In this document: positions 34,111 through 48,352 of the stretch, one piece after another
How positions within the stretch are numbered: position 1 is the stretch's first letter
Layout of the letters: each line of letters opens with the position of its first letter
NCBI GenBank assembly: GCA_029066805.1
Contig: JAIEFT010000059.1
Coordinates: 1-53,077, forward strand
Direction of reading: 5' to 3'
DNA: 53,077 nucleotides
From: Clostridiales bacterium
GTDB lineage: Bacteria > Bacillota > Clostridia > Christensenellales > Pumilibacteraceae
The notes under the pieces: model-generated
Seen by the model: the letters and a program-made list of their open reading frames with translations, nothing else
What the model was told of the DNA's origin: nothing
The model's database searches: none
Translations under genes and position numbers: made by a program

Positions 34111-34887
34111 ATGGTTTGGTGGCAAGCCATGGTGCTTGGGCTTGTGCAGGGACTTACCGAGTTCTTGCCCGTGTCGTCAAGCGGACACTTGATATTGACA
34201 AGAGAGCTGATGGGGCTTAACGACGGCAGCTCTTTTTTGCTGTTTGACGTTATGGCGCACGTGGGTACGCTTGTCGCCGTGGTAATCGTGCTGTATAAGC
34301 CTATAATCGAGCTATTCAAAAAACCGTATAAGAATTTATTAATGCTGATTGTTGCCACGATCCCCGCGGTTGTTGTCGGGTTCGCGTGCAAGGATATAAT
34401 CGAAGAGTACTTCTCGACAGCAAAGTATTTGTGCTTCTTTTTTGCGTTTACCGCAATAATAATGCTGGTCAGCGAAATTGTTGCCAAGCGCAACAAGACG
34501 CCTAAGGATTTGGGCTGGGGCGGCGCGGTAGCAATGGGGCTTATGCAGGGCTTAGGCGTTTTGCCCGGTGTGTCGCGGTCGGGCTCGACTATTTTCGGCG
34601 GTACGGTCGCAGGCACGGACAGCAAAAAGATAGCGACGTTTTCCTTCCTAATGAGCTTGCCTGTGATAGGCGGGTCACTGCTTCTCAGTATTATCGACGT
34701 GGCGCAAGCGGGCGCGCTCGGCAACGTCGATTGGTTCAGCATTTTTATAGGTGCGGCTACGGCTTTCGCGTCCGGATATATCGCGGTCAGGGTCATGCTA
34801 AAGCTGATAGCCAAAGCCAATTACAAATGGTTCTCGCTATATCTCGGCATTGTTGCAATTTTGACTTTTTCGTTCTATTTCCTGTAG
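34111..34887 (+). CDS. uppP: Undecaprenyl-diphosphatase
   Basis: A 258-residue polytopic membrane enzyme (BacA family) that recycles undecaprenyl pyrophosphate to the monophosphate carrier and can confer bacitracin tolerance. Both signature loops are present: GLVQGLTEFLPVSSSGHL near residues 9-26 and GVLPGVSRSGSTIFGG near 150-165, with the catalytic Glu, Arg and His. About eight helices. GGAGGT just upstream of ATG 34111 is a good binding site. It lies between the epimerase and ddl, all concerned with envelope polymers. Confidence 0.95.
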   Translation: MVWWQAMVLGLVQGLTEFLPVSSSGHLILTRELMGLNDGSSFLLFDVMAHVGTLVAVVIVLYKPIIELFKKPYKNLLMLIVATIPAVVVGFACKDIIEEYFSTAKYLCFFFAFTAIIMLVSEIVAKRNKTPKDLGWGGAVAMGLMQGLGVLPGVSRSGSTIFGGTVAGTDSKKIATFSFLMSLPVIGGSLLLSIIDVAQAGALGNVDWFSIFIGAATAFASGYIAVRVMLKLIAKANYKWFSLYLGIVAILTFSFYFL

Positions 34888-34933
34888 AGCGTTCATAAAT
34901 ATAAAATTTATCACACTTTTTTTACGGCAATCA

Positions 34934-34939
34934 TATACA
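34934..34939 (+). promoter_or_regulatory. Possible -10 element six bases before the ddl ATG
   Basis: TATACA lies exactly six bases before ATG 34946 and no Shine-Dalgarno is visible. No convincing -35 was found, so the start is only a leaderless candidate. Confidence 0.35.
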
Positions 34940-34945
34940 ACAAAT

Positions 34946-36022
34946 ATGATTGCTGTATTTTTCGGTGGAAGATCGTGCGAGCACGACATCAGTGTTATTA
35001 CGGGATTGCAAGCCATGTCCGCATGCAAAAAGAAGTGTGTCGGCGTGTACATAGACGCGGATGGCGTATGGTGGGCGGCTGAGTGTTTTGACAGCGTTTC
35101 CGCCGTGCGCAACAACAGGTTCGACGGAAAAAGGGTATACCTTCGTCCCGCCGAAAATTACTTGTACCACAAAAACAAAAAGCTGTACAAGGTTGACTGC
35201 GCGCTGCTTTGCATGCACGGAATTTTGGGTGAGGACGGTTCGCTACAGGGTTTGCTTGAAATGTGTGGCATACCGTACACGGGCAGCGGCGTTATGGCGT
35301 CTGCTATAGGTATGAACAAAATAAAATCAAAGCAGGCGTTTGTAGGCGCAGGACTGAACGTGCTGCCGTACGTGACGGCTACGCACGTAAATTACAATGC
35401 CGATGCCGGTGCGGTGTTGGAAAGCGCGGAATCGCTCGGCTATCCCGTGATTGTCAAGCCGTGCAACTTAGGCAGTTCCATAGGCATATCGATTGCGGAG
35501 GACAGGGCGCAGCTTTACACGGCGCTCAGAGTGGCGTTCGAGTGGGACGACGTGGTTATAATCGAAAAAGCGCTATTGGACTTTACGGAAGTCAACTGCG
35601 CTGTGCTGGGCGACAGCTATGACCGAGATCTTATTGTGTCTCAAACCGAACAACCCGTCGGGTGGAAAACGTTTTTGACGTTTGCCGATAAGTATGCAGG
35701 CGACGTGAAATCGCTAAGGCATAAGATGCCCGCGGAAATCGGCGCGGAAAAGAACGAGCTTGTGCAGAGCTTAGCCGAAAAGGCGTTCCGCGCGGTGGGG
35801 TGCAGCGGCGTTGCGCGCGTTGACTTTATGATAAAGTGCGACGATATTTACGTCAACGAAATAAACACGATCCCGGGCTCGCTGTCGTCGCCGTTATTTT
35901 CCGAACAAATGCCGTTTTCTAAGCTTATAGATAAGCTGATAGAGTGCGCTGTAGACCGTAAACAGCGGTTTGACGCGCTAAAACGCACGTACACGCCCAC
36001 TATCCCTATAGTGGGTAAATAG
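34946..36022 (+). CDS. ddl: D-alanine--D-alanine ligase
   Basis: A 358-residue ATP-grasp enzyme joining two D-Ala for the peptidoglycan stem. N-terminal IAVFFGGRSCEHDISVITG, then HGILGEDGSLQGLLEMCGIPYTGSG, the ATP-grasp lysine region YPVIVKPCNLGSSIGIS, and the C-terminal RVDFMIKCDDIYVNEINTIPGS with the metal-binding Glu and Asn. The residue that separates D-Ala-D-Ala from D-Ala-D-Lac ligases cannot be read confidently by eye, so vancomycin sensitivity is not inferred. A strong shared terminator follows. Confidence 0.94.
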   Translation: MIAVFFGGRSCEHDISVITGLQAMSACKKKCVGVYIDADGVWWAAECFDSVSAVRNNRFDGKRVYLRPAENYLYHKNKKLYKVDCALLCMHGILGEDGSLQGLLEMCGIPYTGSGVMASAIGMNKIKSKQAFVGAGLNVLPYVTATHVNYNADAGAVLESAESLGYPVIVKPCNLGSSIGISIAEDRAQLYTALRVAFEWDDVVIIEKALLDFTEVNCAVLGDSYDRDLIVSQTEQPVGWKTFLTFADKYAGDVKSLRHKMPAEIGAEKNELVQSLAEKAFRAVGCSGVARVDFMIKCDDIYVNEINTIPGSLSSPLFSEQMPFSKLIDKLIECAVDRKQRFDALKRTYTPTIPIVGK

Positions 36023-36043
36023 TCAGAATAAATTCAACGGTTA

Positions 36044-36078
36044 AAAACACGGTATCGTTTTATCCGATACCGTGTTTT
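36044..36078. terminator. Bidirectional terminator between ddl and tetR
   Basis: AAAACACGGTATCG pairs perfectly with CGATACCGTGTTTT over a seven-base loop, 14 bp in all, A/T flanked on both sides. Confidence 0.85.
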
Positions 36079-36079
36079 A

Positions 36080-36676
36080 TTATGCTTTATAGCTCATGGG
36101 TCTGACGCAGTAGGTGATGATTTCGCAAATAAACAAAATATCGTCCTCACAGTCGTTGCGTACCCACTCGTTGATTATGGCGTCGATACCTTTTAGGAAA
36201 TACTTTTGCATGTAGTAAATGAGCTTTTTGTCCGTCACGCCGTGTTTGGCGTATATGGGAACGAAGAGATTTTCAATCATATAATTGTCCATGCTATTTA
36301 TTTCAAAGGCGTGTGCGTTTTCGGCATAAATTTTGAAAAGGCGCTTATGTTCCTGTATATATTTCAAGTACGGCAACAGATATTTCGGCGAGATAAAGTT
36401 TAGATCGTCCTTGTTCAGTTTGCGCATATCAGATAGATCTACGGGATCGTCAAATTTGCATTCGGTTAAAAAGTTGCCTATCATTCCCTGATAAGTTTCT
36501 TTTAATAAATCGTACGTATTCTCGTAATGCGCGTAAAAGGTGGAACGGTTGACGTCCGCCACTTTGCATATATCCATTATGGTTATATCCGCAAATTCTT
36601 TGCTCTCTAACAAAGTTATAAATGCGCTGCCCATTTTATTCGCCGTATTTTGGAATTTAGATTCAGACCTGTTCAT
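36080..36676 (-). CDS. TetR-family regulator of the envelope locus
   Basis: A 198-residue regulator. Residues 12-52 form the TetR HTH (FITLLESKEFADITIMDICK, ADVNRSTFYAHYENTYDLL). The C-terminal domain is helical and of the TetR_C_8-like type (FLTECKF, HKRLFKIYAENAHAFE, INEWVRND). It is divergent from the operon beginning at 36802. Its own promoter is TTGCTT-N17-TATAAT followed by six bases and ATG, so a leaderless mRNA. The shared block at 36714-36782 adjoins its -35, so a bound dimer could control both directions. Signal unknown; membrane-active compounds are a reasonable guess from the controlled genes. Confidence 0.87.
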   Translation of the reverse strand: MNRSESKFQNTANKMGSAFITLLESKEFADITIMDICKVADVNRSTFYAHYENTYDLLKETYQGMIGNFLTECKFDDPVDLSDMRKLNKDDLNFISPKYLLPYLKYIQEHKRLFKIYAENAHAFEINSMDNYMIENLFVPIYAKHGVTDKKLIYYMQKYFLKGIDAIINEWVRNDCEDDILFICEIITYCVRPMSYKA

Positions 36677-36682
36677 GTTTTG

Positions 36683-36711
36683 ATTATACTAAAGAATTTT
36701 AAAAAAAGCAA
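36683..36711 (-). promoter_or_regulatory. Leaderless promoter of the TetR gene
   Basis: Minus strand TTGCTT (36711-36706), 17-bp spacer, TATAAT (36688-36683), CAAAAC, then ATG at 36676. No Shine-Dalgarno. Confidence 0.75.
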
Positions 36712-36713
36712 TC

Positions 36714-36782
36714 AGAAACCGACACTTTTCGGATTTTGTGTTGTGGTGTTTTTTGAAATTACGGATTAAAATGTAAGTGTAA
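36714..36782. promoter_or_regulatory. Regulatory block A, shared with block B at 39623
   Basis: AGAAACCGACAC, about ten bases, then TGTTGTGGTGTTT, and further AATTACGGATTAAAATGTAA GTGTAA. The same order and most of the same bases recur at 39623-39690. The ACAC and GTGTT pieces make an imperfect dyad, fitting a TetR operator. It sits between the divergent TetR gene and the 36802 operon and ends where the operon's -10 should be. Confidence 0.65.
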
Positions 36783-36801
36783 TCGGGAGGGCAAATCCGG
36801 T

Positions 36802-37488
36802 ATGAAACAGAACGAAAACACCAACGAAACAAAAGACACCGTCGCTATAACCGACGCGGACTTTAAGGAGTTTTTATCGGCTTCGGGTGATGCGCAATGG
36901 AAAATACTGCAAGCCCACGCCGAAAAAAACAAAAAAATCATTCAAATAAGGAGATTAAAAACCATGAACGAACAGTACAACGACCATCACTACGAGGAAA
37001 TCAGCAAACAGTTTGAGGAATTCTGCCACACCAAAGGCATTGCGGCAAAGTTCAAAGTCGCATTTGCGCAAATGGCTGAAAACACGCGCAAGCAGAAGGA
37101 AGCGGACAAAGCGCAGCTTGAGGAAGTAAAGCGTCAGTCGGCGGAAGCAAACCCCGAATTTACCGAGTTTTTGCATACCAAAGGTCTTAAGGCAAAAGTA
37201 AAGCTGATTATTGCTAACCTTAAAAAAGGCATAAAAGAAGCGCCGCAAAAGACCGCGGCGGCTGTCGACGGAATTTCGGCGCAGACCAAAGCAAACATTG
37301 CAAAAGCGCAAGCAAGCGTTTACAGAACAACGGCAGGCTACGGCGCAAATAATAGCGGAGCAAATGTGCAAGACGCTTCGGAATATACCGCGGAAGATCT
37401 TGCTCGCGAGTTCAACGAGTTTTTGAAAGCCAAAGGTCTTGACGGAAAGTACGCTGTAGAAGTTACAGGCGAGGAAAACAATGACTGA
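36802..37488 (+). CDS. Protein with four EFLxxKGL motifs, unknown function
   Basis: A 228-residue soluble protein, not recognised. A short motif recurs four times: DFKEFLSASGD (20-30), QFEEFCHTKGIAAK (70-83), EFTEFLHTKGLKAK (119-132) and EFNEFLKAKGLDGK (203-216). Spacers are charged or Ala/Gln-rich, with likely helices (AEANPEF; KTAAAVDGISAQTKANIAKA). No signal peptide or membrane helix. GGGAGGG precedes ATG 36802, but AAGGAG (36948-36953) also precedes an in-frame ATG at 36964, so a shorter 174-residue form with three motifs may be made. It opens the TetR-controlled operon, overlapping the acetyltransferase start by 8 bases. Confidence 0.7.
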   Translation: MKQNENTNETKDTVAITDADFKEFLSASGDAQWKILQAHAEKNKKIIQIRRLKTMNEQYNDHHYEEISKQFEEFCHTKGIAAKFKVAFAQMAENTRKQKEADKAQLEEVKRQSAEANPEFTEFLHTKGLKAKVKLIIANLKKGIKEAPQKTAAAVDGISAQTKANIAKAQASVYRTTAGYGANNSGANVQDASEYTAEDLAREFNEFLKAKGLDGKYAVEVTGEENND

Positions 37489-38038
37489 ACTCGAAAAAGC
37501 GCTTTCCGGTGAACAGTTCAACCGCAGGGATGGAGAGGTGATTGCCTTTCAGATGAAAGTCGAGGAGCTTTTATACGATTTCAATCACTCAAGACCGAGC
37601 GACCCTAGGCGCACTGAAATAATCAAGGAGCTTGTCACCGGCTACAATCAATACGTTTTTATCGAGGACGGCTTTAAGTGCGTGTTCGGAAAGAACATTC
37701 ACTTTAAAGGCACGGCAATGATCAACTTTAATTGCACGTTCCTCGATTCCAACATTATCACCGTCGGACATTGTGCGCTTATCGGTCCTAACTGTAGCAT
37801 TATCTGCACCAACCACACGCTTGATGCGGACGAAAGGCTTAAAGGCGGTTTTTGCGATAAGCCTATCACGATCGGCGATAAAACATGGCTTGGAGCGAAC
37901 GTAACCGTTTTGCCCGGTGTGACTATCGGCGAGGGCGCGGTAATCGGCGCAGGTTCGGTCGTAACAAAAGATATTCCGCCGTACACTGTGGCGGTAGGAA
38001 ACCCTTGCAGGGTTGTAAAAGAAATTCCGCACAAATAG
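37481..38038 (+). CDS. Left-handed beta-helix O-acetyltransferase (maltose/galactoside type)
   Basis: A 185-residue hexapeptide-repeat acetyltransferase of the Maa/LacA family (CoA-dependent). The N-terminal helical cap includes LLYDFNHSRPSDPRRTEIIK, and the beta-helix has the catalytic His in CTNHTLD, then the repeats ITIGDKTWLGANVTVLPGVT and IGEGAVIGAGSVV, ending VAVGNPCRVVKEIP. Members acetylate free sugars or sugar residues; here, next to cardiolipin synthase, an envelope glycan is possible but unproven. The start overlaps the previous gene by 8 bases. Confidence 0.88.
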   Translation: MTELEKALSGEQFNRRDGEVIAFQMKVEELLYDFNHSRPSDPRRTEIIKELVTGYNQYVFIEDGFKCVFGKNIHFKGTAMINFNCTFLDSNIITVGHCALIGPNCSIICTNHTLDADERLKGGFCDKPITIGDKTWLGANVTVLPGVTIGEGAVIGAGSVVTKDIPPYTVAVGNPCRVVKEIPHK

Positions 38039-38047
38039 GAATGGCAG

Positions 38048-39610
38048 ATGAAAAAGAAAATCGTAATTAACGAATACAACAAACAAGTGGAACGGGAGAT
38101 ATCTTATACCCCGTTCCGCTATATCGTTGCAATATTTCTGGTCGTATTGGAGACATTGGCGGTTATTGCCGTTATGACGTTCCTGACGATGTACATTCCG
38201 TACTTTTACTTTGCCGTGGTTGCAACGCAGATCGGCGTTGCGATCGCGATAATCAACCGCAAGGATAATCCCGATTACAAGCTGCCGTGGCTGTTCTTTG
38301 TCATGCTCATCCCGATCGTCGGGTTTATGCTGTACTTTATGTTCTATTCGCGTAAACTGAACAAAAAGCAAATAAAGAGATTAGATAAGCTGACAAAACA
38401 ACACGTAGATAAAGACGATACGACGGAACTATCGGAAATAAGCGCAGGCGACGCGCTTATCGGCTCGCAAGCTATTATGCTGAACAAGCTTTCCGATTCG
38501 CATACATACGCTAATACCGATATTCGATATTATCCGCTCGGCGAGGAGCTGTTTGCCGCCATGGTCGATGATCTGAAAAAAGCCGAGAAGTTTATATTCA
38601 TGGAGTACTTCATAATCGAGGGCGGGTTGTTCTGGGACACGATTTTGGATGTGCTCATGGATAAAGCGGCGAGCGGCGTGGAAGTGCGCGTTGTTTACGA
38701 CGATATAGGCTGTATGATGACGCTTCCCGGCAATTACCATAAACAGCTCCGTAAGCTGGGGATAAAAGCCGTTCCGTTCTCGCGCCTGCGCGGACAAGCC
38801 AACAACGAGTTTAACAACCGTAGTCACAGAAAGATAACCGTAATAGACGGTAAGGTAGGGTACACGGGCGGCGTGAATATTGCCGACGAATATATTAATC
38901 GTATTGTAAAATTCGGGCACTGGAAGGACGTGGGCTTGCGCTTGCAGGGCGAAGCGGTAAACGAACTGACAAGATTATTCTTAATAGACTACGGCTTAAA
39001 CGACAAAAAAGCCGACGATAATTTTGCCGATTATTACCGTTATGAGCAATGCGAGCAGGACGGTTATTGCATACCGTTCGGCGACGGTCCAAAGCCGGTG
39101 TACGAAAGACAGGTTGCAAAGTCGGTCATTCTGAATATGCTCAATCAAGCAAAGCGATACGTTTATATCACTACACCGTATTTGATTATAGACAACGAGC
39201 TTATAGAAGCTCTCGAACATGCCGCCATACGCGGAATAGACGTTCGTATTATAACGCCGCATATCCCCGACAAAAAGCTTGTATTCCTTATGACACGCAG
39301 TCATTACAACAGACTTATGACCGCGGGCGTTAAGATTTACGAATACGAGAGCGGATTCGTCCATGCCAAAACATACATATCCGACGACGAAACGGCTATG
39401 GTCGGCACGGTAAATATGGATTACCGTTCGCTCGTTCATCACTTTGAAAACGGGGTGTGGATATATAAGCACGCAGTAATCGAGGATATAAAACGCGATT
39501 TTCTGGACACGCAAGAAAAGTCTATAAAGTTTGAACTCGGTATGTTGAAAGAAAATCTGTTCCAAAGATTTGTTCGCGCAATGGTAAAAGTATTCTCGCC
39601 GCTGTTCTGA
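38048..39610 (+). CDS. cls: Cardiolipin synthase
   Basis: A 520-residue phospholipase-D-type enzyme that joins two phosphatidylglycerols into cardiolipin. Two to three N-terminal helices (about 20-100; PLDc_N domain with IINRKDNPDYKLPWLF). Two HKD catalytic motifs: HRKITVIDGKVGYTGG near 258-275 and HAKTYISDDETAMVGT near 440-455, both complete. The C-terminus ends FVRAMVKVFSPLF. Raising cardiolipin is a known route to resist membrane-active peptides and daptomycin. It follows the acetyltransferase by 9 bases and is the last gene before the second regulatory block. Confidence 0.93.
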   Translation: MKKKIVINEYNKQVEREISYTPFRYIVAIFLVVLETLAVIAVMTFLTMYIPYFYFAVVATQIGVAIAIINRKDNPDYKLPWLFFVMLIPIVGFMLYFMFYSRKLNKKQIKRLDKLTKQHVDKDDTTELSEISAGDALIGSQAIMLNKLSDSHTYANTDIRYYPLGEELFAAMVDDLKKAEKFIFMEYFIIEGGLFWDTILDVLMDKAASGVEVRVVYDDIGCMMTLPGNYHKQLRKLGIKAVPFSRLRGQANNEFNNRSHRKITVIDGKVGYTGGVNIADEYINRIVKFGHWKDVGLRLQGEAVNELTRLFLIDYGLNDKKADDNFADYYRYEQCEQDGYCIPFGDGPKPVYERQVAKSVILNMLNQAKRYVYITTPYLIIDNELIEALEHAAIRGIDVRIITPHIPDKKLVFLMTRSHYNRLMTAGVKIYEYESGFVHAKTYISDDETAMVGTVNMDYRSLVHHFENGVWIYKHAVIEDIKRDFLDTQEKSIKFELGMLKENLFQRFVRAMVKVFSPLF

Positions 39611-39622
39611 TAAAAACATTTT

Positions 39623-39690
39623 AGAAACCAACACAAATTGTTTTTATGTTGTGGTGTTTGAGTAAAAAAACAATTAAAATATAAGTGTAA
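39623..39690 (+). promoter_or_regulatory. Regulatory block B, upstream of the ABC exporter genes
   Basis: AGAAACCAACAC, about ten bases, then ATGTTGTGGTGTTT and AATTAAAATATAAGTGTAA. It repeats block A (36714-36782) in order and sequence while the genes that follow are unrelated. AGGAGG precedes ATG 39708. It is a second promoter within the locus, probably under the same TetR. Confidence 0.65.
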
Positions 39691-39707
39691 AATACAGGAG
39701 GCAATAA

Positions 39708-40610
39708 ATGAACGCAATAGAAATAAGAAACCTAACAAAAAGTTTTCGCGGAATGTATGCGGTAGATAATCTTTCTATGACCGTTCCCGTCGGCGCAATA
39801 TACGGCTTTATCGGCGAAAACGGATCGGGTAAATCTACTACCGAAAAGCTTATCTGCGGACATCTTGTGCCCGACGGCGGTGAAATAAGGCTGTTCGGTA
39901 AGGATTATACCGACGCAGGCGTTCGCGCAAGAGTAGGGGCGCTTATCGAAAGCGCCGGCTGTTTTCCAAATTCGAGCGTGTGGGCAAACCTCATGATGCA
40001 GGCGCTCAATCTCGGTATTCAAAATCGTAACGAGGAAATAAAGCGTGTGCTCAAGATCGTGCGTATGGAAGATAACGCAAAAATTAAGTTTAAGAGCTGC
40101 TCGCTCGGCATGAAACAGCGTATAGGCATCGCTATGGCACTCTTGGGCAATCCCGCGCTTTTGATTCTTGACGAGCCGATTAACGGACTTGATACGGACG
40201 GTATGCGTATCATGCGAGAAATCATTGTAGACATTACGAAGAACCTCGGATGCACAGTTCTTATCTCTTCGCACATTTTGGGCGAGCTGGAAAAGATAGC
40301 AACCCATTATGGCATTATTCGACAAGGCAAGCTTATTCAGGAAATGTCCGCCGCCGAAATGGACGCGCGCTCGCGCGTGTTTGTGTCGATCAAGACAAAG
40401 CACGTGCCGTCGGCTATGACAGTTTTGCAAAAGAAGTTCGGCAACGTTCGTTTCGAGGACGATAGCTTACGCGTTTACGACGTAGATGACACGGAGGCGA
40501 TCGTTAAATGTCTTTTGGATAACGGACACAAGGTGAGCGAAGTGGAAAAGAACAAAGTAGGACTGGAAGAATACTATATCGAGCTTATGAGCAAAAAGGA
40601 GGAAAAGTAA
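39708..40610 (+). CDS. ABC transporter ATP-binding protein, BcrA/lantibiotic-immunity type (first copy)
   Basis: A 300-residue ATPase. Walker A GENGSGKST (about 36-44), signature SLGMKQR, Walker B LLILDEPINGLD, H-loop SSHIL. The IYGFIGENGSGKST opening and ELEKIATHYGIIRQGKL stretch are typical of BcrA/NisF-like subunits that protect against bacitracin or lantibiotics. The last 80 residues form the usual C-terminal regulatory part. The permease starts 2 bases downstream. Its first 23 bases match those of the second copy at 41460 almost exactly, so the pair arose by tandem duplication. Confidence 0.9.
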   Translation: MNAIEIRNLTKSFRGMYAVDNLSMTVPVGAIYGFIGENGSGKSTTEKLICGHLVPDGGEIRLFGKDYTDAGVRARVGALIESAGCFPNSSVWANLMMQALNLGIQNRNEEIKRVLKIVRMEDNAKIKFKSCSLGMKQRIGIAMALLGNPALLILDEPINGLDTDGMRIMREIIVDITKNLGCTVLISSHILGELEKIATHYGIIRQGKLIQEMSAAEMDARSRVFVSIKTKHVPSAMTVLQKKFGNVRFEDDSLRVYDVDDTEAIVKCLLDNGHKVSEVEKNKVGLEEYYIELMSKKEEK

Positions 40611-40612
40611 TC

Positions 40613-41449
40613 ATGGAAAACACAGTCAAGTTGCAATTTGAACAACCTAGTTTTTTCAAAAGATTAAAAGGCATGCTGAGCGTGGACTTTTACCGCTTGT
40701 TTCACACTCCGCTGTTCTATATCTTTCTCGGAATAGCCGCTATCATTCCCGCGCTCGTATCGATGGGCGCTATGGGCGGCGGTGCGGAAGGCGCACCTAC
40801 GGAAGCTACGGCAATGTTTACAAACGCTTGGCAGATCATAGCCGCAAAAAGTCCGTTGTACGTCATAAACGACATGGGCGATTACGCGAATATGAATATG
40901 GTGTTTATCTGCGGCGGAATTATGATTTCGATTTTCATAGGTCACGATTACAAAAGCGGGTACGTCAAGCAATTATTTACCACCCACGCTAAAAAACAGG
41001 ACTACATGATGAGTAAGACAATGCTCGGCGCGTTCTCTATGGCTTGCATGTGCATTACGTACTTGATAGGCGGTATGATTTCGGCGGCTGGCACTGGATT
41101 GCCGTTTACTGTCGATGCAGGCTCGCTTATTTGCGCCATACTCGGCAAGATGATTATGAGCTTGGGTTGGGCGAGCTTATATACGTTTATCAACGTAATA
41201 TTCCGCAGTAAGTTCGGCATTTCGATCGCGCTGTGCTTCGTGCTCGGGACGGGTATTCCGGTTATCGGCGCGGCGGCGGTCATCGGAAATTCCGCTGCGC
41301 TCAACGTATTCCTTTACGGCTCGTCGGTGTACGCGTGCCTGTCGGCAAACTTTGTAAGCGTGATCGTATGTCTTACGGTTTCGGTCGCATGGGCGGTGAT
41401 ATACAACATATTAGGCTCGTGGATATTATCTAAACGAGATTGCTATTAA
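40613..41449 (+). CDS. ABC-2 type permease (first copy)
   Basis: A 278-residue membrane protein with about six helices. It opens with a soluble FFKRLKGMLSVDFYRLFHTP, then a helix, an exported loop containing NAWQIIAAKSPLYVIN and a CxxGG stretch, and ends in TVSAVWAVIYNI-like helices and SWILSKRDCY. The general shape matches NisE/BcrB-like ABC-2 permeases of immunity exporters. GGAGG precedes the start. It partners the ATPase at 39708. Confidence 0.8.
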   Translation: MENTVKLQFEQPSFFKRLKGMLSVDFYRLFHTPLFYIFLGIAAIIPALVSMGAMGGGAEGAPTEATAMFTNAWQIIAAKSPLYVINDMGDYANMNMVFICGGIMISIFIGHDYKSGYVKQLFTTHAKKQDYMMSKTMLGAFSMACMCITYLIGGMISAAGTGLPFTVDAGSLICAILGKMIMSLGWASLYTFINVIFRSKFGISIALCFVLGTGIPVIGAAAVIGNSAALNVFLYGSSVYACLSANFVSVIVCLTVSVAWAVIYNILGSWILSKRDCY

Positions 41450-41459
41450 GAGGTGAACA

Positions 41460-42362
41460 ATGAACGCAATAGAAATAAGAAATCTTACAAAAAACTTCGG
41501 GCAGAAGCAAGCGTTACAGGGCTTGAACATGACCGTGCCGCAGGGCGCAATTTACGGCTTTATCGGCGAGAACGGTTCGGGAAAATCTACGACGGAAAAA
41601 ATCATCTGCGGACTTATACAGCCGAGCGGCGGAAGCGTTAAACTTTTCGGCAGAGATTATAAAGACGCCGACGTCAGAGCTAAGGTGGGCGTGCTTATCG
41701 AAGCCCCGGGGTGTTTCCCGAATTACAGCGTCTGGAACAACATGATGCTGCAAGCGGCAAACCTCGGTATAGAAAACGCCGAAGAAGAGGTGCGTAAAGT
41801 GTTGAGAGTCGTTCACATGGAAGGCTCGGCGAGCAACAAATATAAGAACTGCTCGCTCGGTATGAAACAGCGTATTGGCATAGCGTTCGCGCTACTCGGT
41901 AATCCCACGTTACTTATTCTTGACGAGCCTATCAACGGTTTGGACGCCGACGGTATGCGCATTATGCGCGAGGTCTTAACGGACGTTACCAAAAACTATA
42001 ACTGCACGGTTGTCATTTCGTCGCACATCTTGGGCGAGCTGGAAAAGATAGCGACCCACTACGGTATCGTGCGCGGCGGCAAGATGATAGCGGAAATGAC
42101 CGCCGAAGAGCTTAACGCAAACTGTCGCACGTACGTTGAGCTCAAAGCCAAAGACATGGCGGCAACGAAGGCAGTACTCGAACGGAAGTACACTCGCGTT
42201 GAAACGGACGAAGAAGAATATATCCGCATTTACGACGGGGTAAAAGCCGAAGAAGTTGTAGACTATATGTATAACGAGCTGCGTATTGCCGTTACGGAAA
42301 TCAAAACAAGCAAAATCGGTTTGGAAGAATATTATATCGACTTGATGAAGGAGGGCAGATAA
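41460..42362 (+). CDS. ABC transporter ATP-binding protein, BcrA type (second copy)
   Basis: A 300-residue ATPase closely related to the gene at 39708 along its whole length, with Walker A GENGSGKST, SLGMKQR signature, LLILDEPINGLDADGMRIM and SSHILGELEKIATHYGIV. The sequence is diverged most in the last 80 residues, where substrate or partner specificity may differ. GAGGTG precedes ATG 41460, 10 bases after the first permease stop. The following permease starts at the base after its stop. Confidence 0.9.
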   Translation: MNAIEIRNLTKNFGQKQALQGLNMTVPQGAIYGFIGENGSGKSTTEKIICGLIQPSGGSVKLFGRDYKDADVRAKVGVLIEAPGCFPNYSVWNNMMLQAANLGIENAEEEVRKVLRVVHMEGSASNKYKNCSLGMKQRIGIAFALLGNPTLLILDEPINGLDADGMRIMREVLTDVTKNYNCTVVISSHILGELEKIATHYGIVRGGKMIAEMTAEELNANCRTYVELKAKDMAATKAVLERKYTRVETDEEEYIRIYDGVKAEEVVDYMYNELRIAVTEIKTSKIGLEEYYIDLMKEGR

Positions 42363-43160
42363 ATGGAAGCGACGTTTGAAAAACTCACGTTTAAAAAGCG
42401 GCTTAAGACCATGCTCAAGGTGGACTTTAAAAGAATGTTCACTATGCCGCTTGTTTACATTTTGGCGGCGGTCAGCTTTGCAATGCCGATACTTATTTTG
42501 GTAATGACTACTATGATGGGCGGCGAACCCGACCCGACTACGGGCGCGGAAGCGGCGGTAATGTTCACAAACGTATGGCAGGCGATAAGCTCTGTCAGCG
42601 GCGGCGAAAGTGCGGGTATGAGCATGGACCTTACGACTATGTGCAATATGAACCTTATGTACTTTATGCTTGCCGTGCTTGTATGTGTATTCGTTTCCGA
42701 CGATTTTAAGAGCGGCTATGCAAAGAATTTGTTTACCGTTCGCTCGAAAAAGGTAGATTACGTTTTTTCGAAAACGATTGTATGTTTTGTCTGCGGCGCT
42801 ATCATGATTATTATGTTCTTCATAGGTGCTATGATAGGCGGCGCGATCGGCGGACTTCCGTTCACAATGGAGGGCTTTACTGCGGGCGGAATAGTGGCTT
42901 GTTTGTTCTCCAAAATATTCCTTGTTACTGTATTCGTTGCGATATTCTTAACGTTTGCCGCTGTTGCGAAACAGCGTACGTGGCTTTCGATCTTGCTTGC
43001 GATCGGCGTCGGCGCGTTCATGTTTATGATGATACCGATGATGACACCGCTCAATGCAAGCTTCCTTCACGTTATTATGACGCTTGCGGGCGGCGGGCTG
43101 TTCGCCGTAGGTCTTGGCGCGGTAAGCAATGTGATACTCGACAAAACGAGTTTGGTATAG
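42363..43160 (+). CDS. ABC-2 type permease (second copy)
   Basis: A 265-residue membrane protein with about six helices, related to the permease at 40613 in its N-terminus (FKKRLKTMLKVDFKRMFTMP) and in the NVWQAI and YVFSKTI regions. The exported loop after helix 1 is Met/Gly/Ala-rich. GAGGG precedes the start. With the ATPase at 41460 it forms a second exporter, or the four subunits form a heteromeric one. Confidence 0.8.
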   Translation: MEATFEKLTFKKRLKTMLKVDFKRMFTMPLVYILAAVSFAMPILILVMTTMMGGEPDPTTGAEAAVMFTNVWQAISSVSGGESAGMSMDLTTMCNMNLMYFMLAVLVCVFVSDDFKSGYAKNLFTVRSKKVDYVFSKTIVCFVCGAIMIIMFFIGAMIGGAIGGLPFTMEGFTAGGIVACLFSKIFLVTVFVAIFLTFAAVAKQRTWLSILLAIGVGAFMFMMIPMMTPLNASFLHVIMTLAGGGLFAVGLGAVSNVILDKTSLV

Positions 43161-43291
43161 TCAGTACGAGCAATAAAACTTCTGTTGATCAGGTTTTCGC
43201 AAAAAGAGCATATCGGCAATATTTTCGACATATTGATAATCGTAAAGCAACAAAGCCGCAAAAGGTGCGGCAAAAAAAGGAGATTATCGAT
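43161..43291. other. Leader between the ABC genes and the peptidase
   Basis: 131 bases without a gene. Contains a hairpin GCCGCAAAAGGTGCGGC followed by a run of A, not a terminator on the plus strand, and AAAGGAG for the next start. An upstream in-frame extension of the next ORF overlaps the permease and is a shadow. No clear promoter seen. Confidence 0.5.
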
Positions 43292-44755
43292 ATGCGAAAA
43301 AAACTCATTGCCGTATTTGCGGTTGCGGCGCTCGCTCTGCCGCTTTGCGCGTGTTCGTCCGACGAAAAGACCGAGCTTACAAGCTACACGATAGAAGCGT
43401 CTCTATCCGCCGACAACATTCTTACCGCGACCGTCACTTGCGACTACGTCAACAACAACGACGTTCCGCTTAACGAGTTGTGGTTTCACCTTTATCCCAA
43501 CGCGTTCCGCGAGGGGGCTACGTATTGTCCCGTGCCCAACGACCGCATACCCGATGCGTACCCGAGCGGCAGAAGCTACAGCGTTATGAAGATCGACGGG
43601 GTGTCCGTGGGCGGCAATACCAAGGAAGTCACGGTCGGCGGAGACGATGAGAACGTGCTTATTGTAGCGCTTGACGGCGCGCTAGAGCCTACCGAGAAAA
43701 CCTCGGTAAAAATCCAATATTCCGTCAAGCTTCCCAAAGTAAAGCACAGACTTGGCTACACGGATAAATCCGTCAACCTTGCCAACTTCTATCCGATAGC
43801 GTGCATGTACCGCGACGGCGCGTTTGTAGCCGATCCGTATTACTCGATAGGCGATCCGTTCTACAGCGAGTGCGCTAACTATTCTGTAACGCTCACCGTT
43901 CCGCAAAACTACGAATGCGCGTGCACGGGCGAGATATCGGGCAAAACCGAAGCCGAGGGCACTGTGACATATGAGATAGGCGCAAGCTCGGTGCGTGACT
44001 TTGCGGCAGTGCTTGGCGAGTACCAAAAAATGAGTGGGCTCAGCGGTTCGACAATAGTCAATTACTACTACTATTCGGACGCCGATCCGGAAAAGGCGCT
44101 CAACGCGGCGATTGACAGTGTGCGCATATTCGGTGACAAGTTCGGTGCATATCCGTACAAAGAATACACGGTAGTGCAGACGGGATTTTTGCAAGGCGGT
44201 ATGGAATATCCCGCACTGTCTATGATTTCCGACGCTTACAGCGGCGACAGCAAGCTTGATATTATAGTGCACGAAACGGCGCACCAATGGTGGTACGGCG
44301 CGGTGGGTAACGACGAGGTAAAGCATTCGTGGCTTGACGAAGCTATGGCGGAGTATTCCACCATGATGTTTTACGAATATGCCGACGGTTACAAATACAC
44401 GTTTGAGGGTAAGCGCGCGGACGCACTCGGAGCATACATGCTTTATTGCGAAACGTACAAGAACAACGGCTTAGGCGACACGTCCATGACGCGTGCGGTA
44501 AACGAATACGCCAACGAAACCGAGTACTCGTACATGATTTACGTCAAGGGCGCACTCATGCTGGACGATATTCGCAACACTATAGGCACAGATAAGTTCC
44601 TCGCGGGACTAAAGCAGTATTACGCCGACAACAAGTACGGAATAGCTCAGCCGCAGAACCTTATCGGCGCAATGGAAAAAGCTTCTAAGCGTCAGCTCAA
44701 ACCGTTGTTCGAGTCATGGCTGAACGGCAATGTTCAATTGTATTCCACACATTAA
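43292..44755 (+). CDS. M1-type zinc metallopeptidase lipoprotein
   Basis: About 487 residues from ATG 43292, preceded by AAAGGAG. Lipobox LCAC (about residue 20). An immunoglobulin-like N-terminal domain (SYTIEASLSADNILTATVTC) leads to the peptidase domain with GGMEYPALSMI (GAMEN-like exopeptidase motif) and HETAHQWW (His about 327, Glu, His) followed 18-19 residues later by the third ligand in DEAMAEYS. Such M1 enzymes cut peptides from the N-terminus. Anchored outside and next to two peptide-type exporters, it could degrade an antimicrobial peptide, which is inference. It ends the TetR locus. Confidence 0.88.
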   Translation: MRKKLIAVFAVAALALPLCACSSDEKTELTSYTIEASLSADNILTATVTCDYVNNNDVPLNELWFHLYPNAFREGATYCPVPNDRIPDAYPSGRSYSVMKIDGVSVGGNTKEVTVGGDDENVLIVALDGALEPTEKTSVKIQYSVKLPKVKHRLGYTDKSVNLANFYPIACMYRDGAFVADPYYSIGDPFYSECANYSVTLTVPQNYECACTGEISGKTEAEGTVTYEIGASSVRDFAAVLGEYQKMSGLSGSTIVNYYYYSDADPEKALNAAIDSVRIFGDKFGAYPYKEYTVVQTGFLQGGMEYPALSMISDAYSGDSKLDIIVHETAHQWWYGAVGNDEVKHSWLDEAMAEYSTMMFYEYADGYKYTFEGKRADALGAYMLYCETYKNNGLGDTSMTRAVNEYANETEYSYMIYVKGALMLDDIRNTIGTDKFLAGLKQYYADNKYGIAQPQNLIGAMEKASKRQLKPLFESWLNGNVQLYSTH

Positions 44756-44765
44756 CCGTATAAAC

Positions 44766-44873
44766 GTTGCCGTAAGGCGACATATCTCATATCCGCGAAA
44801 GCGGATATATATCGAACGCGAAGCGTATATCACGCGGCGTTTAGCCGCATATCGTTAATTCGCGTAGCGAATT
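44766..44873. repeat. Array of five consecutive short hairpins
   Basis: Five stems follow one another, joined by ATATC or ATATCG linkers: 44766-44781 (GCC/GGC), 44789-44808 (ATATCCGC-GAAA-GCGGATAT), 44816-44826 (ACGC/GCGT), 44834-44848 (GCGGC/GCCGC) and 44857-44873 (AATTCGC/GCGAATT). The different stems share linkers but not arms, so this is a modular repeat rather than one structure. It does not code. Confidence 0.7.
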
Positions 44874-44881
44874 TATCTAAG

Positions 44882-44910
44882 TTATGCACTTATGCACATA
44901 GTTATGCACA
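44882..44910. promoter_or_regulatory. Cluster of DnaA-box-like sites
   Basis: TTATGCACT (44882-44890), TTATGCACA (44890-44898) and TTATGCACA (44902-44910). The last two match the DnaA consensus TTATNCACA exactly. A further reverse-strand near-match lies at 44916-44924. They lie just upstream of the amidase gene. No dnaA or dnaN is in the window, so this may be a DnaA-regulated promoter, a titration site or chance. Confidence 0.45.
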
Positions 44911-44985
44911 ATGAGTGTGTGCAATAGTGCAGAATTTTGTAGAAAAGTAGCGATAAATTGGTTCGGTCGGGAGGTAGCGCGCCAA

Positions 44986-45678
44986 ATGGCGTTTATAACG
45001 ATAAAAAGGAAAACGATAATAGCGGTGCTGTCCGTCGTGCTTGCCGTAATAACGGCGGTTACGACGGCGGCAACAGTTATAGCTTCCGCCAAGCCGAGTA
45101 ACGGCATTACCATAGTTATCGACGCAGGGCACGGCGGAGCGGACGGCGGAGTAACCGGTATAACTACAGGCACAAAGGAGAGTGACGTCAATCTCTCCAT
45201 AGCCAAGTATCTTGCAAAGCACCTACAAAACGACGGATACAATGTTGTGCTTACCAGAAGCGACAGCGCGGCTGTGTGCGGTGGACTAAAGTACAGTAAG
45301 CGCGAGGATATGAAGGCGCGAAAAAACATACTCGCGTCGGCTACGCCGGACCTTGTAGTAAGCGTGCATTGCAATTCCTATCCCGTGTCGTCGGTAAAAG
45401 GCGCGCAGGTATTTTATGCCGGCGCGGCGGGTGAGCCGTTTGCAAGGGTCGTGCAAAATTACTTTAACGACGTGCTAAACGATAGGCCGCGCCAAGCGGC
45501 GGTGGGCGACTACTATATACTCAATTGCAGCGAGTATCCGTCCATACTGTGCGAGTGCGGGTTTTTGTCCAACGCTCAGGAAGAAGGCAGCCTGATAACG
45601 GCAAGCTATCAGCAAAAAGTGGCGTACACGATTTATTCGGCAATCAGTTCAAAGTTCAACGAAAATGCAAATAGTTGA
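44986..45678 (+). CDS. cwlD: N-acetylmuramoyl-L-alanine amidase, CwlD-like
   Basis: About 230 residues from ATG 44986, preceded at 10 bases by GGGAGGT; length equals Bacillus CwlD (237). An N-terminal helix (about 8-30) anchors it. The Amidase_3 domain begins TIVIDAGHGGADGG with the first zinc His, then the Glu in TKESDVNLSIAK, the second His in VVSVHCNSYP, and the catalytic Glu in CECGFLSN. CwlD trims peptides from muramic acid for the muramic-delta-lactam of spore cortex; a vegetative amidase of the same fold cannot be excluded. Position with gpr supports sporulation. Confidence 0.8.
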   Translation: MAFITIKRKTIIAVLSVVLAVITAVTTAATVIASAKPSNGITIVIDAGHGGADGGVTGITTGTKESDVNLSIAKYLAKHLQNDGYNVVLTRSDSAAVCGGLKYSKREDMKARKNILASATPDLVVSVHCNSYPVSSVKGAQVFYAGAAGEPFARVVQNYFNDVLNDRPRQAAVGDYYILNCSEYPSILCECGFLSNAQEEGSLITASYQQKVAYTIYSAISSKFNENANS

Positions 45679-45686
45679 TTGGCATA

Positions 45687-45712
45687 AGTCGGGGAGCGCT
45701 CCTCGGCTTTTT
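45687..45712 (+). terminator. Terminator of the amidase gene
   Basis: GTCGGGGAGCG and CGCTCCTCGGC form a GC-rich stem (one G-T pair) followed by TTTTT. Confidence 0.7.
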
Positions 45713-45729
45713 GCGTTGTAAAAAAACAC

Positions 45730-45758
45730 TTGCAATATTAAGCGTTGTATGGTACAAT
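45730..45758 (+). promoter_or_regulatory. Promoter of the lemA operon
   Basis: TTGCAA (45730-45735), 17-bp spacer ending in TATGG, TACAAT (45753-45758). GGAGG (45778-45782) is about 8 bases from ATG 45791. Confidence 0.7.
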
Positions 45759-45790
45759 AATTCGGTAATAATGCATTGGAGGAAAAATAA

Positions 45791-46408
45791 ATGCAGTTTT
45801 TATCTTTGTCCGGCGTTGTGATAGGCGGCATAGTAGGCGGCGTTGTCGGGCTGATTGTCGTCATTGGTATCATTTGGTACATCACTACGCACAACTCGCT
45901 CATTTCGCTCAAAAACGACGTAGATGAGTCGTTCTCCGCTATGGACGTGCATATGAAAAAGCGTTACGACCTTATTCCCAATCTTGTAGCTACCTGCAAG
46001 GGCTACGCAAAGCACGAGTCCGAAACGTTCACAAGAGTTACCGCGGCGCGTAATGCCGCTATAGCGGCGCGCAGCAGCTCATCTTCGGCGGCGAGCGGCG
46101 TCGACAGAATTTCCGCCGAGCGCGAACTTACCTCGTCGCTTCGCACCTTGCTCAACTTTGTGCAGGAGCAATATCCTCAGCTAAAGGCGGATAGTCAGTT
46201 TAACAATCTGTCCCGCCAGCTCGAGCAGATAGAGGAAGAAATTGCGCGGTCGAGAAAGTACTACAATGCTAAAATCAAGATTTTCAACAACAAGATAGAA
46301 AAGTTTCCGTCAAGCATTGTCGCAAACAAGATGAAGCTGGAACGCAGACCGTTCTTCGAGATCGAGGATGCCGCCGAGCGCGTCGCGCCCAAGGTGAGCT
46401 TTGATTAA
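45791..46408 (+). CDS. lemA: LemA family protein
   Basis: A 205-residue membrane-anchored protein. One helix (residues 8-33, GVVIGGIVGGVVGLIVVIGII) is followed by a four-helix coiled domain with the LemA hallmark KNDVDESFSAMDVHMKKRYDLIPNLVATCK, ESETFTRVTAARNAAI and ARKYYNAKIKIFNNKIEKFP-like text (SRKYYNAKIKIFNNKIEKFP). LemA exposes its N-terminus outward and is involved in membrane or envelope stress in several bacteria. It is directly upstream (3 bases) of the DUF2207 protein, a very common pairing. Confidence 0.92.
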   Translation: MQFLSLSGVVIGGIVGGVVGLIVVIGIIWYITTHNSLISLKNDVDESFSAMDVHMKKRYDLIPNLVATCKGYAKHESETFTRVTAARNAAIAARSSSSSAASGVDRISAERELTSSLRTLLNFVQEQYPQLKADSQFNNLSRQLEQIEEEIARSRKYYNAKIKIFNNKIEKFPSSIVANKMKLERRPFFEIEDAAERVAPKVSFD

Positions 46409-46411
46409 GCT

Positions 46412-48352
46412 ATGAAATCACAAAAAAGTGTAACCGTCGTTTTCGGAATTATTTTCGCAGCGGCGGTCCTGTTTTTTGCGGCAATAATAGTTTTTGCCGA
46501 GGTAGATTACAGTTCTCCGCAAGACATAGACGACAAAATGACAATAACTGAAATGCGCGTCGATACAGTGTGGAGAACCGACCGTTCGTGTTCTGTCACG
46601 CAAGAGCTGGACGTATTGTTCAATGAGCAGCGGCACGGCATATACGTTGATATCCCCGTCGACTCGGGCGAGCGTGTGCGTGGGCTCAAGGTAGACGTGA
46701 CCGACGGCAGGGGCAACGCCATAAATTACGAAGTCGAGCATGAGTCGGCTAACCGTATAGTACGCGTAAAGGTAGGCGACGCCGATAGATACTTATCGAG
46801 AGGCGCAACGCTTAATTGCACGCTCAAGTACGACTACATTACGCCGGTTCATCCCGACGGCGATAATATATTGGATATCAATCCCGTAGGCTACGGTTGG
46901 ATGTGCGTAATAGAGAACGCTATTGTAAACGTTACATTCCCGACGGCAGTAACAGCCGACGCTTTGTATGTAGAGGTTAGCGGGCAATTCGTATCGCCCG
47001 AGCTTTCGGGCGACGGCAAAACCGTTACCTTGCAGACAGGCAGATTATCGCCGTTCCACGGCGTGCGCGTCAAGGCAAGCATGCCAGGCGGCGTGCTAAA
47101 GAGCTCTGGATTCGAAGGCGTTGTTATCGTTGTTGTGGGGATCGTGATCGTTGTAGCGGCGGTGCTGCTGATGATCTTCTTGGGTAAGGATAAGCCGCTC
47201 ACGCCGGTTGTCAATTTTTATCCGCCGATGACTGACGGTAAAAACGGCAGAAAACGGCGCATGCTGCCTACGCAGCTTGGTAAGCTTATTGACGGCAAGT
47301 GTTCTGACGAAGACGTGACTTCGCTCATATTCTATTGGGCGAGCGAGGGTTATATCGATATTGAGGACACAGGTTCGGATACCTATTTGATTAAGCTGAA
47401 GGAGCTTGATCCGGTCACCGAGTATGAGCGCACTCTGTTTAACGACCTGTTCAGAAAAGGAAAAAAAGTCAAGTCGAAAAATAACGACGATGGCGAAATA
47501 AAGAAAAGAGTTTCGATAAAGGATATTTCCGGAAGCTTTGCGGACAACATATACACGGCGAAAGCCGCGGCTAATGCCGAGTTTCGCGAATTTTTTAAAA
47601 AGGGTTTTACTACATTGTCCGTAGCTATGGCATTTTGCGCGGCGCTGTTTGCCGTGCTCGTGTCGGTGCTTGTCACTATGCGCATACACACCGGATTTTT
47701 CAATTTTATAGGCATAATCACCGTCGCGCCCGTAATCCTTGCGTACGCGCTCGGTTCATTGCTTGTGCGCACGTACTTCAAGATCGGCGATGTGCGGCGC
47801 AAAGTGTTTTTGGCGCTGTTCTTTGTTGCGGTGATCCTTTTGTCGGTAGCGGTCATGTTTGCTGTGCCGACCGACGCGATGGGCTGGGCAGAAAAGATAA
47901 TCTTTGCAGTGTGTGTAGGCGTAACGTCCGCACTCGCGCCGTTCCTTACGCGCCGCACCGACGAATACACCGAACAGTTAAACGACATAATCGGATTCCG
48001 TAACTTTCTGCGCGACGCCGAAAAGGATCAGCTCGAAGCGCTGCTCGCCGACGACCCGCAGTATTACTATAATATACTTCCTTACGCCAATGTTTTGGGC
48101 GTGTCCGATATTTGGCAGGACAAGTTCTCCAAACTAAGCATGCAGCCTCCTGGATACTATCACGGCAAACATATTTCGGTGTTCGATATATACCTGGTGT
48201 CGCGCCTGTCAAACTCGATAGGCTCATCGCTCACGTACAGACCTGCTCCGCGCAGCCCTAACATAGGCAGTTTTTCGGGCGGCGGGCACTCGCATGGCGG
48301 CGGAGGCGGTTCGTTTGGCGGCTTCGGTGGGGGCGGAGGCGGCAGCTGGTAA
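46412..48352 (+). CDS. DUF2207 membrane protein with glycine-rich tail
   Basis: A 646-residue protein. A signal-like first helix is followed by a beta-rich extracellular domain (residues about 35-220: MTITEMRVDTVWRTDRSCSV ... GIYVDIPVDSGERV), then a membrane helix near 230-255, a cytosolic region, a second helix pair near 400-500, and a C-terminal tail SGGGHSHGGGGGSFGG typical of DUF2207. The family is paired with LemA and is suspected to be a cell-envelope component. Function unknown. Confidence 0.88.
   Translation: MKSQKSVTVVFGIIFAAAVLFFAAIIVFAEVDYSSPQDIDDKMTITEMRVDTVWRTDRSCSVTQELDVLFNEQRHGIYVDIPVDSGERVRGLKVDVTDGRGNAINYEVEHESANRIVRVKVGDADRYLSRGATLNCTLKYDYITPVHPDGDNILDINPVGYGWMCVIENAIVNVTFPTAVTADALYVEVSGQFVSPELSGDGKTVTLQTGRLSPFHGVRVKASMPGGVLKSSGFEGVVIVVVGIVIVVAAVLLMIFLGKDKPLTPVVNFYPPMTDGKNGRKRRMLPTQLGKLIDGKCSDEDVTSLIFYWASEGYIDIEDTGSDTYLIKLKELDPVTEYERTLFNDLFRKGKKVKSKNNDDGEIKKRVSIKDISGSFADNIYTAKAAANAEFREFFKKGFTTLSVAMAFCAALFAVLVSVLVTMRIHTGFFNFIGIITVAPVILAYALGSLLVRTYFKIGDVRRKVFLALFFVAVILLSVAVMFAVPTDAMGWAEKIIFAVCVGVTSALAPFLTRRTDEYTEQLNDIIGFRNFLRDAEKDQLEALLADDPQYYYNILPYANVLGVSDIWQDKFSKLSMQPPGYYHGKHISVFDIYLVSRLSNSIGSSLTYRPAPRSPNIGSFSGGGHSHGGGGGSFGGFGGGGGGSW

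Follow-up and report, generated by a model that had tools for sequence, protein, structure and literature searches.

A putative TetR-controlled promoter/operator block shared by cardiolipin synthase and ABC-exporter operons in an inserted island of a Clostridiales bacterium

The BcrAB(C/D) bacitracin exporters, the LanFEG/CprABC transporters, the PmtRABCD system of staphylococci, and DhaS with other TetR-family activators are the described systems closest to the locus that we analyzed here, which occupies positions 36080-44755 of a 53,077-nucleotide (nt) stretch of DNA, the window, from a Clostridiales bacterium (GCA_029066805.1, contig JAIEFT010000059.1; genome of 1.93 Mb in 61 contigs, 94% complete). 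The locus contains a divergent tetR gene, followed by rep, oat, cls, abcA1, abcB1, abcA2, abcB2, and a gene for an M1-type peptidase; it carries one sequence block twice, and most of it forms what we describe below as an inserted island. Bacitracin exporters share with the locus a one-component regulator, in their case BcrR, and PmtRABCD has two ATPase/permease pairs and is not known to include a cls. Like each pair of the island, BcrAB-type exporters combine one ATPase with one small permease; the island ATPases of 300 amino acids (aa) fit the 280-320 aa given for BcrA in an excerpt of PMC4239024, and the permeases of 278 and 265 aa are slightly above the ~200-250 aa given there for BcrB. The island differs in having two pairs, a TetR-type regulator, and cls and a new helical protein in the regulon, and no bcrC- or bcrD-like gene was recognised in it. 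TIGR03740 (LanF) is the best NCBIfam model of both island ATPases, but their scores (abcA1 203.4, abcA2 200.9 bits) miss its cut-off of 309.75, a tetR gene adjoins, and the island alternates ATPase-permease-ATPase-permease, whereas LanFEG has one ATPase and two different permeases according to the same excerpt. PmtRABCD, as far as an excerpt of PMC5080381 describes it, is likewise a transport system under a local one-component regulator, but that regulator is a GntR-type repressor and the island proteins score far below the Pmt family cut-offs. DhaS-type proteins are the nearest solved structures of the island TetR by sequence and by fold, whereas DhaS has other targets and the island protein reaches only 34.1 bits against TIGR02366 (DhaS), over residues 13-64 only and short of the equivalog cut-off of 129. 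In the open-licence PMC literature that we searched, we found no paper on this locus. Its parts are of known kinds, and what is new to us is how they are combined, the operator and its geometry, the rep family, and the mobility of the island.

We propose that the island TetR probably binds a dyad in the duplicated block and switches both operons together, as an inducible envelope-defence island. TetR would most likely contact the dyad at about -59 to -36, as numbered from the expected transcription start, just upstream of a poor -35 hexamer, and this contact would switch rep-oat-cls and the double ABC quartet at the same time. The likely trigger would be a membrane-active compound or an effect of such a compound on the lipids, and the likely outcome an altered anionic lipid together with removal of the compound from the membrane. 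An earlier note on this DNA had listed a TetR protein, a repeat protein, an O-acetyltransferase, a cardiolipin synthase, two ABC exporters, and an M1-type peptidase, and family searches bear out the list. Genes within an operon overlap or are separated by at most ~10 nt, and both blocks end right before a likely ribosome-binding site. The features of the regulon are as follows.

36080..36676, minus strand: tetR, TetR-family regulator of 198 aa (TetR_N; DhaS-type nearest solved relatives)
36683..36711, minus strand: tetR promoter TTGCTT-N17-TATAAT, adjoining the operator (best consensus match upstream of tetR)
36714..36751, plus strand: putative operator copy A, AGAAACCGACAC...TGTTGTGGTGTTT, with dyad CGACA-N14-TGTTG (sequence comparison)
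36767..36772, plus strand: -10 TAAAAT of the rep-oat-cls promoter; start expected at ~36779 from the alignment
36802..37488, plus strand: rep, repeat protein of 228 aa, predicted helical (EF.EFLHTKGF.AK.KL repeats)
37481..38038, plus strand: oat, LacA/Maa-like hexapeptide O-acetyltransferase of 185 aa (Pfam Hexapep, Mac)
38048..39610, plus strand: cls, cardiolipin synthase of 520 aa with two PLD motifs (TIGR04265, PLDc)
39623..39659, plus strand: putative operator copy B, 1 base shorter between the arms (sequence comparison)
39675..39680, plus strand: -10 TAAAAT of the ABC operon (block alignment)
39708..40610, plus strand: abcA1, BcrA/LanF-like ABC ATPase of 300 aa (ABC_tran, TIGR03740)
40613..41449, plus strand: abcB1, permease of 278 aa with 7 hydrophobic segments (PF12730 at 25.3 bits, under the cut-off of 27)
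41460..42362, plus strand: abcA2, BcrA/LanF-like ABC ATPase of 300 aa (ABC_tran, TIGR03740)
42363..43160, plus strand: abcB2, permease of 265 aa with 6 hydrophobic segments (PF12730 at 28.9 bits, above the cut-off of 27)

The duplicated block lies where the earlier note had placed it, with copy A at 36714-36782 and copy B at 39623-39690, and the genes that follow the two copies are indeed unrelated. A 44-nt core (TGTTGTGGTGTTT-N13-ATTAAAATRTAAGTGTAA, at most 3 mismatches) occurs in the window only at 36739 and 39647, with 0.00 occurrences expected from 100 shuffles of the window, and the whole genome holds the same two copies only, while a reversed-pattern control gives 0. A tolerant pattern matches 53 block-like sites, spread over 32 of 112 loci, some of which duplicate each other, and 0 in the reversed sequence. 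Block B has 13 bases between the conserved arms where the other 52 of these 53 sites have 14, and it (39623-39659) may be a weaker site. Across 45 profiled sites, the first 38 positions of the element are strongly conserved, ~15 variable positions follow, and then comes TANANT, whose first T, A, and last T are invariant in all 45; a pyrimidine-purine step follows it in 45/45 sites, at the expected transcription start. A sequence-only model built from 44 sites (R1) matches 90 sites, of which 83 are distinct and from several genera; they come from 57 sources that were mostly picked for having sites, so the count is not a frequency.

Among the tested centres, the dyad CRACA-N14-TGTTG is the best (centre 18.5, p 0.0135; 2000 column shuffles, 72 distinct sites). 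This interrupted dyad abuts the -35 position and is followed by the variable spacer and the conserved -10. We prefer it to a 20-bp palindrome, AAACCRA-N6-TYGGTTT, because columns 8 and 17 of the latter do not covary. A MerR-type 19-bp spacer (TTGTGG to -10) was also rejected, the conserved element being upstream of the spacer and the spacer itself not conserved, and an RNA-level element was discarded because the element stands upstream of the -10. Directly downstream of the sites we found rep, abcA1, a condensation-domain protein (PF00668), a DUF2238-like membrane protein (PF09997, below cut-off), a multi-helix membrane protein, and c67, a protein without a recognised family, with start codons mostly 6-46 nt past the model end. 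These assignments come from tblastn matches at loci other than the window and three duplicate loci (L222, L223, L197), and distances beyond that range arise where the tblastn start misses the true start or another gene intervenes. Because the block precedes at least four kinds of gene in relatives, sequence comparison identifies it as a promoter/operator in general use at this locus rather than as a one-off duplication. In one relative an extra box, as we call matches to the element, stands at L038:1864-1932, ~370 nt before another ABC gene that is upstream of tetR and only 31% similar.

We then considered the geometry of these promoters in 64 distinct sites, which remain from 79 best sites after removal of 5 from duplicate loci (the same three loci being excluded), 9 unparsed, and 1 repeat. 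TGTTGTGG and the -10 are 20 nt apart in 63 of the 64 and 21 nt apart in the other. At 17 nt upstream of the -10, 50/64 sites have the hexamer TGGTGT, the best match to TTGACA at spacers of 16-18 reaches 2/6 letters in 56 sites and 3/6 in 8, and the -10 is near consensus. For comparison, 38 tetR promoters average 3.6/6 at the -35, a contrast that is only suggestive because their value is a best match over all positions, a rule that favours high values. A poor -35, a good -10, and a constant distance together fit a bound protein that helps the polymerase, and the geometry thus favours, without proving, an activator-dependent promoter.

The TetR protein itself matches PF00440 (TetR_N) at E 3.4e-4 and 20.8 bits, just under the Pfam cut-off of 24. 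Its AlphaFold2 (AF2) model is all-helical, with a predicted local distance difference test score (pLDDT) of 73.6, and the top Foldseek hits are 4mk6 and DhaS 2iu5; all listed matches are titled TetR proteins or transcriptional regulators. The helical model and the fold matches place the protein in the TetR/AcrR family despite the sub-threshold PF00440 score. A sequence search of solved structures (phmmer) returns 3kkc, 4mk6, and 2iu5, and after the DhaS-type structures the model is best matched by EthR and FadR (Foldseek), which bind lipid-like ligands according to an excerpt of PMC12647141.

To compare the locus across relatives, we collected 110 loci, 30 of them kept from 121 genomes searched with the TetR and 80 being the best of at least 575 confirmed in a cardiolipin synthase search of genome contigs. 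These loci show the gene order tetR(<) rep oat cls abcA1 abcB1 abcA2 abcB2 again, with some genes lost and others added, and the block precedes both operons there as well. Within the family (74 genomes), the box is present in 12 genomes, a close TetR in 13, and both in 12 (Fisher p 5.9e-13). Twelve of the TetR matches are full, at 223 bits or more, and that of G067 consists of the 48 residues left at a contig end; in G036, the genome with a close TetR and no box, 93 nt separate tetR from the end of its contig. None of the 61 other family genomes carries the box, G121 among them not having been searched for the TetR. Across the order (396 genomes), the box at E 0.001 is present in 30 genomes, a TetR of at least 190 bits in 23, and both in 21, so that the box occurs in 21/23 close-TetR genomes versus 9/373 others (Fisher p 8.5e-26). 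Both p values are inflated, because the genomes share ancestry and some of them also served to train the model (L047 is a contig of G295). The box and TetR draws of the 396 genomes were taken as identical, the listed handles agreeing, and in searches of more than 40 genomes weak sites are lost to stricter filtering. The two order genomes with a close TetR and no box have their tetR at contig positions 80 and 93. Among the genomes with a box and no close TetR, G289 has its box at a contig end and a TetR of 28% on another contig, and G245, G333, G341, and G430 have a weak site with a TetR gene (33-43% identity) no more than ~2 kb away on that contig. Box-bearing genomes carry only 1-3 sites each. 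The element thus precedes each operon and is missing where the TetR is missing, as in a TetR-operator regulon, with G140, G171, G219, and G402 as exceptions. The earlier note's proposal of one regulon under this TetR holds at the sequence level for gene order, block placement, and co-occurrence of block and TetR, and fails for the M1 peptidase.

Diverged TetRs give a further view of the element. We examined the upstream 700 nt at 22 loci whose TetRs are more distant or odd-cased, and 11 of these (TetR 32-43% identity) have a dyad CRACAC-N-GTGTTG, with at least 10/12 arm letters, exactly 23 nt before a TANNNT, the same distance as in the window. This dyad mostly precedes c9, a small membrane-protein gene ahead of tetR. 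At L016 two further TANNNT also fit, and at L239 the best-scoring arms have another gap. Six other loci have a dyad that faces away from tetR and starts 45-53 nt upstream of it. For L020, L239, L183, and L081, 18-27 of 200 shuffles gave a dyad as good, and these four dyads carry little weight by themselves. Two c9-tetR operons with the dyad-to--10 distance of the window belong to Lachnospira eligens ATCC 27750 (L238; no R1 match) and Roseburia sp. 831b (L239; R1 22.5 bits). Because block and close TetR co-occur and diverged TetRs keep the dyad-to--10 distance, a single TetR most likely controls rep-oat-cls and both BcrAB/LanF-like ABC pairs.

We next describe the predicted targets. Rep has no match at 0.001 in Pfam or NCBIfam (0 families in each), its AF2 model has a pLDDT of 57.1 and a predicted template modelling score of 0.21, and a profile search of solved structures returns nothing better than E 0.87. 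A relationship to DUF2835 was set aside as chance or a weak lead: 9/17 members match at E ≤1 (best 3.7e-5), and the window protein, at 0.022, is below the cut-off. At 36948-36966, AAGGAG precedes an in-frame ATG (36964) by 10 nt, and at L057, L064, and L040 the rep open reading frame starts at or near the matching internal place; a shorter second rep product is possible. Oat scores above the Pfam cut-offs for Hexapep and Mac and reaches no NCBIfam cut-off among the matches listed (25 of 43 families). Cls reaches 347.3 bits against TIGR04265 (cut-off 290) and has PLDc in two stretches, as expected of a bacterial cardiolipin synthase. Lantibiotic-protection and drug-export models give the ATPases their highest scores, all below cut-off; the PmtC model gives 129-137 bits, and the Pmt cut-offs (NF047565/NF047568) are 350/375. 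The multi-helix membrane protein, of ~300 aa and without a Pfam match above cut-off, comes after tetR in many relatives, among them L039:963-1973, L044:4062-5009, and L221, but not here, and a protein 30% identical to it is encoded at G000:C30:20046-20960. The condensation-domain protein, in which we saw an HxxxDG-like motif by eye, is box-driven or neighbouring at L048:5744-6946, L039:2618 onwards, L221, and L081, and could acylate a lipid or wall component.

The 80 cls loci separate into 18 with a TetR match of at least 45%, including one partial match (L059), and 62 without, including one merely cut by a contig end (L034). Both ATPases are found in 15/18 TetR-bearing versus 18/62 other loci, and abcA1 lies at most 150 nt after cls in 9 and 9, respectively. 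The association of cls with the ABC quartet in a minority of loci that lack the TetR supports a joint role. A histidine kinase like that of L057 occurs in 1/18 versus 29/62 loci (p 0.0017), a count based on identity cut-offs only, with no coverage limit, that may include general kinases, and an OmpR-type response regulator is near cls in 30/62 loci without the TetR. It is as if regulators were exchanged, with a two-component system in place of the TetR. Examples of such kinase and response-regulator genes in TetR-less cls loci are L057:6861-7925 and L059:12288-12956.

Our preferred reading, binding of the island TetR to the block dyad, must be weighed against three others. One of them leaves the regulon as it is and differs only in direction: TetR would be a classical repressor that covers the -35 region (TGGTGT) and is released by a ligand. 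Repression is the rule among TetR proteins, the conserved element extends over the -35 position, and the dyad upstream of the c9-tetR operon in diverged relatives also fits negative autoregulation. The poor -35 beside a good -10 at constant distance speaks against repression, as do the DhaS-type nearest solved relatives, DhaS being an activator in the available part of PMC6534649. We take repression seriously as a possibility without expecting it, and consider DhaS-like control by activation probable. The block could also be read by another regulator or a sigma factor, with TetR a mere co-inherited neighbour. Binding by TetR is deduced from sequence, the co-occurrence could mean joint inheritance of the module, and kinase and response-regulator genes are frequent near TetR-less cls loci. 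Further observations that count against binding by this TetR are the good boxes of G140 and G171, which follow a cls fragment within ~300 nt of a contig end in assemblies with no TetR at E 1e-20 anywhere, the weak boxes of G219 and G402, again with no TetR at E 1e-20, the lack of a box in 24 of the 29 order genomes whose only TetR is a diverged one (model R1 matches in the other 5), and 5/22 diverged loci with no convincing dyad in the upstream 700 nt. The box is, on the other side, absent from all 61 family genomes outside the 13 with a close TetR, TetR and box co-occur in other families too, the element changes along with the TetR while the distance is kept, and 1-3 sites per genome are few for a general factor; we judge a different reader of the block improbable. 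That the similarity of the blocks is chance or a functionless duplication residue might be suggested by there being only two copies in the genome, before unrelated genes, but none is expected in shuffles, and 83 distinct sites from several genera preserve the element next to a spacer that drifted; we give this reading practically no credence.

A separate question is what the regulon does. From the gene families, a role in defence is probable; an alternative is that the ABC quartet exports a self-made peptide or lipid, in envelope biogenesis or as a Pmt-like exporter of phenol-soluble modulins (PSM). Two ATPase/permease pairs beside a one-component regulator resemble PmtRABCD, the PmtC model does find the ATPases, and the box-driven companions in relatives include the condensation-domain and DUF2238-like membrane proteins. 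The Pmt scores, however, are far below the cut-offs and the lantibiotic-protection model scores higher (~201-203 bits, also below cut-off), and we saw no precursor-peptide gene, genes of less than 80 aa not having been looked for. Export of a self-made product thus appears unlikely, although defence has its own difficulties: the ABC proteins stay under the lantibiotic-protection cut-off, 44/62 TetR-less cls loci have no recognised pair of these ATPases, and a nisin-resistant Listeria strain has less, not more, cardiolipin according to an excerpt of PMC4239024.

The earlier note missed that the region is, as comparison of genomes indicates, an inserted, horizontally moving island of ~7.2 kb with eight genes. 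The island and the hairpin at its left side are located as follows.

36023..43200, no strand: inserted island (ddl-M1 adjacency in 11/20 genus genomes; right edge between 43160 and ~43220)
36044..36078, between ddl and tetR: terminator-like hairpin of 14 pairs (a like hairpin seen by eye in L220 and L223)

The M1 gene and ddl are each present in 19/20 genus genomes. They are neighbours, with a gap of ~70-243 nt, in 11 (G019, G010, G006, G009, G001, G002, G003, G014, G013, G018, G011), and G011 and G013 carry a TetR on another contig. The island lies between them on one contig in G000, G015, and G008, and G012, G004, and G005 fit the same arrangement, interrupted by contig ends. In G016 ddl and M1 are far apart, G017 has a partial ddl match ~0.8 kb before M1, and G007 has neither. 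A motif around TTCGACATATTGATAATCG (43221-43243) upstream of M1 was seen by eye in several genomes of the genus, whether or not they carry the island, and the stretch before the M1 gene has no box; the M1 gene thus appears to have its own upstream region. The earlier note had counted the peptidase as a member of the locus, and we reject this in view of that motif, the missing box, and its place next to ddl, with no island between, in 11/20 genus genomes: it belongs to the chromosomal background. Its label as a lipoprotein was judged by eye from the N-terminus. We read 34111-36022 and 43295-48352 as the background that the island interrupts; ddl and M1 in these flanks were checked against Pfam, and the other genes are presumably uppP, an amidase-like gene, lemA, and a DUF2207-like gene. 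With Ddl as the sole marker of background, the island proteins are far closer to those of distant genomes than the chromosome is: in G306, from another family, abcA2 is 94% and TetR 83% identical versus 35% for Ddl, and in G063, from another genus, abcA2 is 86% identical versus 51% for a partial Ddl (G048 has no Ddl match at E 1e-30). Comparison of these identities points to transfer between families. As vehicles, viruses were set aside, no relative being confirmed in IMG/VR, and so were plasmids, where we found only TetRs of less than 60% identity, in 24 records (5 of 24 among the matches listed).

Taken together, these results can tentatively be read, with confidence somewhat short of even, as a portable envelope-defence regulon. 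A DhaS-type TetR would activate from one strictly phased dyad at promoters without a good -35, genes such as rep, the condensation-domain protein, the DUF2238-like and multi-helix membrane proteins, and the ABC quartet would join by gaining the promoter, and the whole set would be transferred together from family to family; elsewhere among Clostridia, the TetR beside the cls-ABC core may be replaced by a two-component system. If true, sequence alone would define a defence-like regulon, from its regulator and operator to its promoter geometry and targets, in Clostridia known here only from metagenome assemblies, and cardiolipin synthesis would be tied to peptide-type ABC export in several families. 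The locus would offer a test of whether a DhaS-type TetR activates from a fixed site, and diverged c9-tetR operons with the same spacing occur in the two named organisms, L. eligens and Roseburia sp. A mobile island of this kind may alter the resistance of gut commensals to bacteriocins and host peptides.

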